Source: Thioalkalivibrio paradoxus ARh 1 (GTDB taxonomy: Bacteria; Pseudomonadota; Gammaproteobacteria; Ectothiorhodospirales; Ectothiorhodospiraceae). From it: a stretch of 64,000 nucleotides of DNA. Shown in pieces: positions 682 through 10,100 of the stretch (position 1 is the stretch's first letter; each line of letters starts with the position of its first letter). Both the position numbers and the translations under genes were made by a program. The notes under the pieces are model-generated. The model did no database searches, was not told the origin of the DNA, and saw only the letters and a program-made list of their open reading frames with translations. The DNA lies in assembly GCF_000227685.2 (NCBI RefSeq), contig NZ_CP007029.1, positions 3,384,501-3,448,500 of the forward strand. Reading direction: 5' to 3'.

Positions 682-1388
682 TCCTGGCAGCGGGACGCGG
701 CGAACGCATGCGACCGCTGACCGACCACACGCCCAAGCCCCTGCTCGAAGCCGGAGGCGCCGCGCTGATCGAGCACGGTATTCGGCGCCTGCACGCCGCC
801 GGTTACCAGGAAATCGTGATCAACGTGGCACACCTCGGGGAACGCATCGTGGAACGGATCGGCGACGGCAGCCGGTTCGGGGTCGGGATCCGATACTCGC
901 GCGAACCCGCGGGGGCGCTGGAAACGGCTGGCGGAATCCGCGAGGTTCTGGACTGGCTCGGCCCCGGGCCGTTCCTGGCGATCAATGCCGACATCTGGTG
1001 CGACCACCCGCTGACCCCGCCGGCGCTCGGGGACGAAACCCTCGCCCACCTGGTGCTGGTGGACAATCCCGCGCACCACCCGGCCGGGGATTTCGCGCTG
1101 AACGGCAGCAGAGTCGCGCTCGCCGGCACGCGCCGTTACACCTTCAGCGGCATCGGCTGGTACCGGCCGGAACTGTTCGCGGCGCTGCCCCGGGGCCGTA
1201 GCCCGCTCGCACCCGTGCTGCGATCGGCGATCGCTGCGGGCGCGGTCGGCGGAGAGCATTATCGCGGCACCTGGGTCGATGTCGGCACACCCGAGCGCCT
1301 GCGCGCGCTCGACGTGGCGCTTCGGACCGAAGCGGGTCCGACCGACGGACAAAAAAAACCCGGCCTGCGCCGGGTCAACGCTCCGTAG
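669..1388 (+). CDS. murU: N-acetylmuramate alpha-1-phosphate uridylyltransferase MurU
   Basis: This is a nucleotidyltransferase of the sugar-1-phosphate family (239 aa). The N-terminal signature AAGRGERMRPLT followed by PKPLLE is the nucleotide-binding loop, and NADIW near residue 108 supplies the metal-binding aspartate. MurU makes UDP-MurNAc from MurNAc-1-phosphate, bypassing de novo synthesis and its fosfomycin-sensitive step. I chose GTG at 669, giving V-R-A-M-I-L-A-A-G as in homologues; ATG at 678 is the alternative. The start lies inside amgK, so the pair is probably translationally coupled. The last 12 or so codons run through a hairpin that looks like the terminator of the opposing operon, so the C-terminal tail (QKKPGLRRVNAP) is probably not conserved. 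Confidence 0.9.
   Translation: MRAMILAAGRGERMRPLTDHTPKPLLEAGGAALIEHGIRRLHAAGYQEIVINVAHLGERIVERIGDGSRFGVGIRYSREPAGALETAGGIREVLDWLGPGPFLAINADIWCDHPLTPPALGDETLAHLVLVDNPAHHPAGDFALNGSRVALAGTRRYTFSGIGWYRPELFAALPRGRSPLAPVLRSAIAAGAVGGEHYRGTWVDVGTPERLRALDVALRTEAGPTDGQKKPGLRRVNAP
1351..1375 (-). terminator. Rho-independent terminator for the minus-strand sigma/DsrE operon
   Basis: Read on the minus strand there is a perfect 7-bp stem, ACCCGGC/GCCGGGT (1358-1364 with 1369-1375) and a 4-base loop, followed by eight T residues (1358-1351). It lies about 50 bases past the stop of the DsrE gene and inside the 3' end of murU. Confidence 0.8.
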
Positions 1389-1423: not shown

Positions 1424-1972
1424 TCAGGGTTTGACATAGATGTAGCCCTGACGTTGCAGATCCGAAAGCCGCGCGACGCCGCTGTGCACGACATCGGCGT
1501 CGCGGGCATCGTAGAGCGCGTCCACCGGTATCTGCCGCCGGGCCAACGTGTGCCCGCAGACCTCGAAGCGCACGCCCTGCAGCTTCAGCGCATCAATGCC
1601 GTCCCGGATCGGCGCGTCGTGATTCGCGGCCAGCAACAGATCGACGCCGCCACCGTGCAACACGACGCGGATCTCCAGGTTCTCGGCACCAACGGAATCA
1701 ATGTGATCCTGCACCCTTTGCAATGCATTCCGCTGCGTTTCGGTATCGCTGCGGTTCACGTGATAGACCACGCGCGAACGACCCGGTCCGGCCCACGCGA
1801 CGCTACCGGCAGCCGCAGCCGCCAACAGCACGAACAGCAACCCGCGATGGAAACGGCGCCGTTCGGCGCACGCCGGTTCCGGCGGCCGTTCGAGTGCGCC
1901 GCTCCGCGCTGCGTGAGCGCCACCGCACGCGGCTGCCGTTCCCGAAAAGCGCCTGTGGACCGCGTCAGACAC
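1424..1972 (-). CDS. Membrane-anchored or exported DsrE-family protein
   Basis: 182 aa. Residues 44-61 (LLFVLLAAAAAGSVAWA) form a hydrophobic segment, either a signal peptide or a membrane anchor, after a basic cytosolic stretch. Residues about 66-182 match the DsrE/DsrF-like fold: a strand-turn reading LEIRVVLHGGGVDLLL, then FEVCGHTLARR with the family's conserved cysteine at about C139. DsrE-type proteins bind or pass sulfane sulfur, though many members of this subgroup are uncharacterised. It starts with GTG and overlaps the preceding anti-sigma gene by 8 bases, so it is the third gene of the sigma operon. The C-terminal halves of the two proteins resemble each other, which suggests duplication. 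The exact N terminus is uncertain. Confidence 0.75.
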   Translation of the reverse strand: MSDAVHRRFSGTAAACGGAHAARSGALERPPEPACAERRRFHRGLLFVLLAAAAAGSVAWAGPGRSRVVYHVNRSDTETQRNALQRVQDHIDSVGAENLEIRVVLHGGGVDLLLAANHDAPIRDGIDALKLQGVRFEVCGHTLARRQIPVDALYDARDADVVHSGVARLSDLQRQGYIYVKP

Positions 1973-2714
1973 GGATGTACGTCCACCCCTGCTGCTGTCG
2001 CTGGGCGGCCTCGCGTACGCCCGACTCGACCTCCTCGACCCAGGGCAGGAACTCGATCATGCGGCCCTCCTGCCGTTCGTGGCGGGCGCGAGACTGACCG
2101 CAAGCGGTGATCCTGAGCCCGGGGTAGGTATGCACCAGCTCCCGGATCCGGTTCGGAAACGGCGCGAGATCCGCGCGCACCAGATCCATCGCGTTGCCGT
2201 GCACCACGACCTGCACCTCGAGATCCTGGCCGTGCAGCCACGCCGTCTCGAACATGTACTCGATGTCGTCCAACAGCACCTCGGCATCGTCGATCTGGAC
2301 ATCGGTCACATGCAGGAGCACCTGGTCACCCCGCTCGCCGGCGGCCGGGACGGCCGCCGCGTCCCGGTCCGGCGCGGCCGCCAACGGCTGTGGCCCGTCG
2401 GCCGTCTGCTCGCGCGTGATCTCGAGCACTGCGATGGTGCCCACCGCCAGCGCCACGAGGCTGGCAGCCACCACGGTCAACCAGGTCCCCGTGCGGCGCT
2501 CCCCGGTCCGGCACTGCCGGATATCGGGATCCGGAAGCGTATCGGGACGATAGGCCATGGCCACGAGCTCTTTCAGCTGGTAGAGATCGCAGACATCACG
2601 GCTCAGGGACTCGTCCGCCGCGATGGACTTCAGCGTTCCCAACCGATCCTCAGGAGAGAACTCGCCATCCACGAACGCATTCAGGATCTCTTCGCTGGGA
2701 CGACGGTCACTCAT
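1965..2714 (-). CDS. Anti-sigma factor with C-terminal DsrE-like domain
   Basis: 249 aa in three parts. Residues 1-60 have the style of a small anti-sigma domain (EEILNAFVDGEFSPEDR, then a helical VCDLYQLKELVAMAY stretch). Residues 77-97 are a single transmembrane helix. After a Pro/Ala-rich linker, residues about 130-249 form a DsrE-like domain with VVVHGNAMDLV and ITACGQSRAR, keeping one cysteine at about C205. The predicted topology is anti-sigma domain in the cytosol and DsrE domain outside the membrane. That would let a periplasmic sulfur or thiol signal control the sigma factor encoded just upstream. The gene overlaps the sigma gene by 8 bases. Both domain calls are by eye; the fusion itself is one uninterrupted reading frame. 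Confidence 0.75.
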   Translation of the reverse strand: MSDRRPSEEILNAFVDGEFSPEDRLGTLKSIAADESLSRDVCDLYQLKELVAMAYRPDTLPDPDIRQCRTGERRTGTWLTVVAASLVALAVGTIAVLEITREQTADGPQPLAAAPDRDAAAVPAAGERGDQVLLHVTDVQIDDAEVLLDDIEYMFETAWLHGQDLEVQVVVHGNAMDLVRADLAPFPNRIRELVHTYPGLRITACGQSRARHERQEGRMIEFLPWVEEVESGVREAAQRQQQGWTYIRV

Positions 2715-3255
2715 TGGTGTTCCTGATCAGTCGGAGTGCCGGAGACTGCTGGCCCGCCTGCTCCTGCAAGAGCTTGCGCAGCTGCCCGCGGGCACGGCTC
2801 AGCCGGCTCATCACGGTTCCGATCGGCACGCCCAGTACCTCCGAGACCTCGGCATACGCAAAACCCTCGATATCGACCAGCGATATCACCTGCCGATGGT
2901 CGTCACTGAGCCGGGCCATCGCCCGGCGGACGTCCAGCACCACGCGGCCGCGCTCGGTATGGGTTTCCGGGCAAGCGTCGTCACAGGGCAGCTCGAGGTC
3001 GTCCACGTCCACCGTGTCGCGCTGGCGCCGGCCCCAGTCCCGGTAGCAGTTGGTCATGATGCGGAACACCCAGGCCTTCAGGGCCGCTTCGTCCTGCAGC
3101 GTCTTCAGGCCAGTCAGCGCCTTGATCATCGCTTCCTGAACCAGATCGTCGGCCAGGGCGGCATCGTGACACCAAGCGAACGCCGTTCTGTAGAGTTGTG
3201 GACGCAAGTCACACACCTGTTGACGCAAACGTCGCTGCCTGAGCCACGCTGCCAT
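2707..3255 (-). CDS. ECF-type RNA polymerase sigma factor
   Basis: 182 aa with the usual two-domain ECF layout. Region 2 spans about residues 18-80 (DDLVQEAMIKAL, then AWVFRIMTNCYRDWGRR). Region 4 spans about 108-162 (MARLSDDHRQVISLVDIEGF, then EVLGVPIGTVMSRLSRAR), the helix-turn-helix that reads the -35 element. I preferred ATG at 3255, because the GAGGAG Shine-Dalgarno then has a 6-base gap; ATG at 3261 abuts it. It is the first gene of a three-gene operon with its putative anti-sigma factor. A cysteine-containing acidic linker (LPCDDACPE, around residue 90) separates the two regions. Confidence 0.9.
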   Translation of the reverse strand: MAAWLRQRRLRQQVCDLRPQLYRTAFAWCHDAALADDLVQEAMIKALTGLKTLQDEAALKAWVFRIMTNCYRDWGRRQRDTVDVDDLELPCDDACPETHTERGRVVLDVRRAMARLSDDHRQVISLVDIEGFAYAEVSEVLGVPIGTVMSRLSRARGQLRKLLQEQAGQQSPALRLIRNTNE

Positions 3256-3664
3256 GGTCATCTCCTCACCCGACCGTCATCGCGATCTTGCGTGTTCTTG
3301 TAGGCTGTAGGACGCTTGTCCTCCAGCCGCTATTCCAGCCGCTTATTCTGCTGGACCGGGCCCAGTGACCCCGAAAAGCAGGGCACTGCCTGCGGATTCG
3401 ACCGCGAAACGGTCCGCGGGTTGCGTGAATCCTGGGGCCGCCAGATGGTCTTGGTGGTAGGGACCGCTACCGGGAACCCTACCATGGGGAGCTGCCGCGG
3501 CTGCGCAAGCGGGAATCGAAGGTCGGGGCTTGGAGTGTTTCCAGTCCGAATGCCTGGCGTTCGGGCAACGCTGGCCCGCCGTCCGTCAGCGGCGCGACAG
3601 CATTGGAGCGCACCACTCGAATGCCTCTGCGACGAGGCCCACGAGGACGACGAGTGAGGAAGTG
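3256..3664. other. Divergent intergenic region between sigma operon and GCS-like gene
   Basis: About 410 bases without a convincing gene. It holds the candidate ECF promoter described separately and, at its right end, the GAGGAA Shine-Dalgarno of the plus-strand gene at 3665. Frames that run through it lack family signatures. Confidence 0.5.
3308..3336 (-). promoter_or_regulatory. Candidate ECF-type promoter of the sigma operon with small palindrome
   Basis: On the minus strand GGAATA (3336-3331) is followed about 16 bases later by GCGTCCTA (3315-3308), resembling an ECF promoter (GGAA -35, CGTC-type -10) that would allow autoregulation. The palindrome AGGAC-GCTT-GTCCT overlaps it at 3309-3322. 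The match is by eye only. Confidence 0.3.

Positions 3665-6599: not shown

Positions 6600-10096
<3,497 letters not shown>

Positions 10097-10100
<4 letters not shown>

Follow-up and report, generated by a model that had tools for sequence, protein, structure and literature searches.

The window, a stretch of 64,000 nucleotides from Thioalkalivibrio paradoxus ARh 1 (own genome G000, a single contig of 3.76 Mb), carries near its start a three-gene minus-strand operon that recurs in Thioalkalivibrio and encodes an ECF sigma factor, then an anti-sigma factor and then an exported DsrE protein. The operon comprises the following features:

3310..3336, minus strand: predicted autoregulatory promoter of the ECF26 type, GGAATA-N16-CGTCC, from the genus alignment (genome hit G000:C1:3387810-3387836)
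2707..3261, minus strand: ECF sigma factor gene, 184 aa, with Sigma70_r2 and Sigma70_r4_2 (Pfam)
1965..2714, minus strand: anti-sigma factor gene, 249 aa, with an anti-sigma domain, one transmembrane (TM) helix and a C-terminal DsrE domain
2541..2714, minus strand: anti-sigma N-terminal domain, residues 1-58, predicted cytoplasmic, four short helices (AlphaFold)
2412..2480, minus strand: TM helix of the anti-sigma factor, residues 79-101, hydropathy peak 2.48 at residue 79, modelled helix 79-106
1968..2327, minus strand: DsrE-like domain of the anti-sigma factor, residues 130-249, predicted periplasmic, pLDDT ~95, match to 1l1s
2100..2102, minus strand: codon of Cys205, the invariant DsrE cysteine (32/32 genus homologues, 41/41 distant homologues)
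1424..1972, minus strand: gene of the exported DsrE protein, 182 aa as called, counted from a start codon that is uncertain, PF02635 at 50.2 bits
1556..1558, minus strand: codon of Cys139 of the exported DsrE protein (24/26 genus relatives, 28/29 distant loci)
1347..1376, minus strand: intrinsic terminator at the operon end, stem 1376-1357 followed by a T run

The three reading frames lie where the sequence-only reading had placed them, with overlaps of 8 nt each (2707-2714 and 1965-1972), and the terminator that it had described behind them is present. Throughout the genus the operon is flanked by a carboxylate-amine-ligase-like gene on one side and a nucleotidyltransferase gene on the other, and this synteny is kept. 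Chance reading frames or an annotation artefact are ruled out by conservation, by synteny within the genus and by recurrence of the sigma/anti-sigma pair in 40/40 distant loci. The same window also encodes, at 6600-10100 on the minus strand, an 1166-aa protein unrelated to the operon, which by eye fuses a BadF/BcrA-type activase to a dehydratase-like part.

The sigma factor contains Sigma70_r2 at residues 19-81 and Sigma70_r4_2 at residues 110-161 (Pfam; E 5e-14 and 1e-14), and the presence of regions 2 and 4 together with the absence of region 3 places it among the ECF (group 4 sigma-70) factors. It is 39-45% identical to ECF factors from alpha- and betaproteobacterial plasmids, some of which are annotated with an adjacent anti-sigma factor. 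Family searches gave no match to an ArsR winged-helix domain in any of the three operon proteins.

The anti-sigma factor combines in one frame an anti-sigma-type N terminus, a single membrane helix and a DsrE-like domain, the architecture that had been read from the sequence. Its N-terminal domain is modelled by AlphaFold as helices 8-15, 21-33, 35-41 and 44-54, at a pLDDT of 58-73 only, and the protein gives no match to the Pfam anti-sigma families. A zinc anti-sigma of the redox type (ZAS) was considered and rejected, as residues 1-75 contain no HxxxCxxC motif; C42 stands alone and is not kept in all distant members. The N-terminal domain putatively sequesters the cognate ECF sigma factor, as in class I (transmembrane) anti-sigma factors, for which the pairing of the two genes in 40/40 distant loci is indirect support. 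Because basic residues on the N-terminal side of the TM helix favour an N-in topology, the DsrE domain would be periplasmic.

Elsewhere in the genome, an orphan 86-aa protein (L002 1471-1731, minus strand; G000:C1:3632741-3632947) corresponds to the anti-sigma N-terminal domain alone, being 46% identical to residues 1-69 of the anti-sigma factor and having neither TM helix, DsrE domain nor adjacent sigma factor. Its gene is convergent with a separate gene of a cytoplasmic DsrE-family protein, and about ten further Thioalkalivibrio genomes have short copies resembling it. It is possibly a soluble second anti-sigma factor.

Structure prediction for residues 130-249 returned a DsrE fold; a model lacking that fold, which the sequence-only reading had named as evidence against itself, was not obtained. 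The closest structure is MTH1491 (1l1s; Foldseek E 2e-8; VIA-align Z 17.7, rmsd 1.4, 109 residues aligned), followed by ST0148, YchN, DsrEFH and TusBCD. The Pfam profile PF02635 scores 16.9 bits in this protein, below its gathering cutoff of 22.7, and a profile built from the anti-sigma homologues matches 1l1s at 1e-13. Cys205 is the sole cysteine within the domain, as had been noted, and together with A13, D16, G243 and W244 it makes up the only positions invariant across 41 distant anti-sigma sequences. In alignments, Cys205 and Cys139 of the third protein both fall on the position of the cysteine in MTH1491 and ST0148. A degenerate DsrE domain can be ruled out, since both the fold and Cys205 are retained; judged by position, Cys205 is the conserved cysteine of the DsrE/DsrF-like family (PF02635), and carriage of sulfur is predicted.

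A profile search of 369 Gammaproteobacteria genomes found 86 with a match, 63 of them with the full-length fusion of anti-sigma factor and DsrE domain. The co-occurrence with an ECF sigma factor, proposed earlier as a check, is complete: the pair is adjacent in 40/40 distant gammaproteobacterial loci examined, and in many of the 40 an exported DsrE gene adjoins it, either co-directional or divergent. The fusion was not found outside the GTDB Gammaproteobacteria, where other classes of the phylum gave only exported DsrE-only proteins; the alphaproteobacterial profile matches were accordingly rejected as fusions, being exported DsrE proteins without an anti-sigma domain. Three genomes (G116, G240 and G167) each contain three or four matches to DsrE-type anti-sigma or DsrE proteins, so that a single cell may run several sulfur switches in parallel.

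When the sequences preceding the sigma gene in the genus are aligned, a single conserved block stands out, GGAATA-N15/16-CGTC, and the promoter that had been proposed near 3308-3336 is found as the copy listed above. The same block precedes 31/41 distant sigma genes, with 0.02 expected from Markov shuffles and 0 found in the reversed sequence, and in 12 of these distant regions the motif also occurs on the opposite strand, before divergent exported-dsrE/porin or soxB-like genes. It is the ECF26 promoter consensus published for Sinorhizobium and Starkeya (-35 GGAAT, -10 CGTC; PMC6527743), and it was derived from the sequences before it was compared with that consensus.

A conserved gene for an outer-membrane porin-like protein (PF07396 in one tested) is found in thirteen distant loci (L094, L097, L100, L107, L108, L111, L115, L116, L119, L123, L125, L126 and L127). 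It usually follows an exported DsrE gene, is divergent from the sigma gene and often has the same promoter motif upstream; its product is a candidate sulfur-compound porin.

Genome-wide counts of the motif were made by pattern search, with the reversed pattern as control. In the T. paradoxus genome, GGAATA-N15/16-CGTCY has 7 hits against 1 for the control. One is the sigma promoter itself, and others lie upstream of soxYZ (SoxY and SoxZ both above the NCBIfam cutoffs), of soxAX (SoxA above cutoff; the next ORF is SoxX-like and gives no family hit), of a gene for an exported rhodanese, and of a gene for an MBL-fold hydrolase that is followed by a molybdopterin oxidoreductase. The hit in L130 is ambiguous. 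The hit in L133 (C1:1753714) was discarded as a target, as were hits in recurrent coding sequences such as GGAATATATCG...; both are probably chance or coding.

Over 30 genomes of the genus the motif has 179 hits against 18 for the control. It stands upstream of soxY in 27/27 Thioalkalivibrio genomes with soxY and upstream of soxA in 27/27 testable Thioalkalivibrio genomes, a 28th soxA at a contig edge having been left out. The sequence of the spacer is variable at these sites. These counts come from coordinate matching, with the remaining loci read directly. In three genomes (G007, G012 and G026) the soxY site ends in CGTCA and not CGTCY; an apparent absence of the soxY motif tied to loss of Cys139 in two of the three was an artefact, as the site is present in this form.

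In other families the motif lies directly before soxXYZ(A) (G116, G240, G288, G118, G202), soxB (G116, G240, G118, G345, G157, G161), a TsuA/YeeE-like gene (G118) and exported dsrE genes (G288, G166, G116, G191). These assignments come from reading of the ORFs, with NCBIfam confirmation of SoxB, SoxA, SoxX and the TsuA-like protein only in L119, which has SoxX, SoxA and SoxB beside the system, and L126, which has SoxB and the TsuA-like gene beside it. The motif has 165 hits against 75 for the control in 25 distant genomes with the system, and 22 against 21 in 11 without it. In genomes that contain soxY but not the fusion, none of the soxY genes located (those of G035 and G055 and, for G051, the one listed) falls together with a motif hit. 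SoxY itself was found in 55/63 genomes with the fusion as against 134/306 without (odds ratio 8.8, uncorrected for phylogeny). The remaining 8/63 fusion genomes have no SoxY match, and therefore sox cannot be the only target.

The link to extracytoplasmic sulfur, which the sequence-only reading had put forward as a hypothesis, is strongly supported because the promoter motif of the sigma factor precedes sox operons; a link by analogy only is superseded by this promoter and regulon evidence. The sox genes could also be just one part of the response of a general thiol or oxidant sensor, answering arsenite or disulfide stress, and a single reactive cysteine would fit such a sensor. Under arsenite, T. 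thiocyanoxidans ARh2, whose genome carries the operon (L053), raised transcripts of soxYZ, soxX, soxA and soxB together and changed those of several DsrE/F-like genes (PMC6620896). This joint response is compatible with one regulon, and is not proof of it. The second strain of the same study showed no rise in sox, however, and thioarsenates form in thiosulfate medium, so that sulfur may be the actual signal behind the arsenic effect. Moreover, the great majority of the recovered motif targets are genes of sulfur oxidation, and none is a thioredoxin, glutathione or peroxidase gene. A general thiol or oxidant sensor is very improbable.

The third protein had been described as a membrane or exported DsrE protein. 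The exported alternative holds, a signal peptide being clear in its relatives; because the relatives begin with this signal peptide, the protein is probably soluble and periplasmic. The true start of its gene is uncertain, since a start at the called GTG (1972) would give the protein an unusual extra ~40 aa at its N terminus. Its PF02635 match lies well above the cutoff (50.2 bits vs 22.7; Pfam), its AlphaFold model also matches 1l1s (E 6e-8), and its DsrE domain and that of the anti-sigma factor are homologous to each other. Cys139, earlier singled out as the counterpart of Cys205, occupies the aligned position and is nearly invariant. It is replaced by Ser in T. halophilus (L051 6722-7396) and strain ALJ24 (L055 6877-7383), where the anti-sigma cysteine is kept, and so it is not strictly required, as both species retain the system. 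Several distant loci have no adjacent third gene. Given the loss of the cysteine in two species and a gene that is not always adjacent, the exported DsrE protein is more likely auxiliary than essential. Another exported DsrE-like protein, of 146 aa and with a cysteine of the conserved type, is encoded elsewhere in the genome (G000:C1:1436285-1436539; L004); a phosphate-transporter-like gene adjoins it and the promoter motif is absent nearby.

The homology of the two DsrE domains also allows a different arrangement, in which the exported DsrE protein docks onto the DsrE domain of the anti-sigma factor and controls its proteolysis, and the loading of sulfur is confined to the exported protein or to SoxYZ. 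ECF anti-sigma factors are often released by proteolysis (PMC3445524), and in several genera extra exported DsrE genes stand under the same promoter motif. Yet Cys205 is invariant in 73 anti-sigma sequences and Cys139 is lost in two, which argues that the anti-sigma cysteine is the essential one, and a docking partner fits poorly with the loci that have no adjacent third gene. Sensing by docking is therefore rather unlikely, and direct binding of sulfur by the anti-sigma factor is preferred.

The sequence-only reading knew of no described system of this layout. This stands for the anti-sigma factor, as no description of one with a DsrE domain was found in the open-access literature. It does not stand for the sigma side, which probably belongs with the ECF26-type sulfur regulators (PMC3511301; PMC6527743), nor entirely for sox, ECF control of which has been reported once, in Arcobacter (PMC3445524). 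RpoE1/RpoE4 of Sinorhizobium meliloti and SigE of Starkeya novella respond to sulfite or other sulfur compounds and, like the present system, have a cotranscribed transmembrane anti-sigma factor, a GGAAT/CGTC promoter and sulfur-oxidation targets (PMC3511301; PMC6527743). Autoregulation, predicted here, is likewise a property of RpoE1/RpoE4 (PMC3511301; PMC6527743). The sigma side probably belongs to ECF26 and works like it. However, the known targets of RpoE4/RpoE1 and SigE are sulfite dehydrogenases, whereas the system in the window has a DsrE anti-sigma factor and has sox and exported dsrE genes as predicted targets. The COG5662-type anti-sigma factors compared, those of S. meliloti plasmid pB (L244) and Roseateles (L245), show no DsrE family match in their C-terminal part, and only the latter has a weak similarity in the N-terminal and TM part (residues 1 to ~105, 41 bits). 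Since the alphaproteobacterial systems answer sulfite or tetrathionate and sensing by their anti-sigma factors is unexplained, the DsrE domain is not the only route.

This relationship raises sulfite as a candidate signal, which would remove sulfane sulfur that the DsrE domain carries in its resting state. Sulfur oxidation is known to pass through sulfite, and RpoE4 and SigE, which share the promoter consensus, respond to this compound (PMC3511301; PMC6527743). By contrast, the two COG5662-like anti-sigma factors beside related sigma factors lack DsrE, which indicates that the sensor differs, and the targets found here are mostly Sox genes and not sulfite dehydrogenases; a sulfite signal is clearly unlikely.

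Other regulators share single aspects of the proposed system. SoxR and sHdrR also regulate sulfur oxidation and answer sulfane sulfur (PMC10451225; PMC12423496), but they are cytoplasmic ArsR-type DNA-binding repressors of sox/shdr genes that need sulfur import by SoxT (PMC11582611), whereas the putative sensor described here would sit beyond the cytoplasmic membrane and work by way of a sigma factor. ECF sigma2 of Arcobacter butzleri (AB1044) likewise activates a sox cluster, but it has a broad, non-autoregulated metabolic regulon and no sensor domain has been described for it (PMC3445524). MTH1491 (1L1S), ST0148 (2PD2) and the wider group of DsrE, YchN, TusD and DsrEFH have the same fold and the same cysteine position, but are soluble and without an anti-sigma domain or membrane helix. 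What is new in this ECF26-like system is its probable sensor domain (DsrE) and its predicted regulon (sox).

Transmembrane anti-sigma factors sequester their sigma factor, and DsrE proteins carry sulfur on a conserved cysteine. Taken as a whole, the operon is best explained, with a probability of roughly 0.7, as an ECF26-like pair of sigma and anti-sigma factor that works as a switch across the membrane and activates thiosulfate oxidation in the periplasm. The computations support the architecture, its conservation, the DsrE folds, the conserved promoter and the sox regulon, to which the proposed mechanism adds a topology in vivo, sequestration of the sigma factor, a chemical signal, formation of a cysteine adduct and a role for the third protein. 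The periplasmic DsrE domain is likely the sensor. While the cell processes thiosulfate or a related compound, this domain would bind a sulfur species present in the periplasm, most likely as an adduct on Cys205; tetrathionate, polysulfide and the sulfane sulfur on SoxYZ are the candidates. A precedent is DsrE3A of Metallosphaera, which takes thiosulfate from tetrathionate as a Cys-S-thiosulfonate (PMC4175335). The exported DsrE protein would be a sulfur donor, relay or reset partner, which may deliver or remove sulfur. The resulting change in the anti-sigma factor would free the sigma factor, and this would transcribe its own operon, soxYZ and soxAX and, in other species, also soxB, the TsuA-like transporter and further exported DsrE proteins. 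The narrower version, in which Cys205 of the anti-sigma factor is itself the site where sulfane sulfur of the periplasm is read, the exported DsrE relay aids this and the ECF26-like sigma factor drives the whole Sox pathway, has about an even chance of being correct.

The detection of extracytoplasmic sulfur compounds by sulfur oxidisers has been called poorly understood (PMC11582611), and the sensing of sulfur species by ECF26 anti-sigma factors an open question (PMC6527743). The operon represents an ECF26-like system that is widespread, has apparently not been described and is predicted to control Sox. Because its off-protein spans the membrane and ends in a DsrE domain, and because its promoter sites precede sox genes, the cells probably use this switch to perceive extracytoplasmic sulfur compounds. 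For much of the Gammaproteobacteria it offers a concrete, testable answer, in which a sulfur-carrier domain with an invariant cysteine would lie across the membrane from a sigma factor and sox is the predicted regulon. If true, a fold known from sulfur carriers would here serve to sense sulfur across the membrane. A family of exported DsrE proteins would gain a function as well, and the promoter motif could be used to predict sulfur regulons in uncultured genomes.
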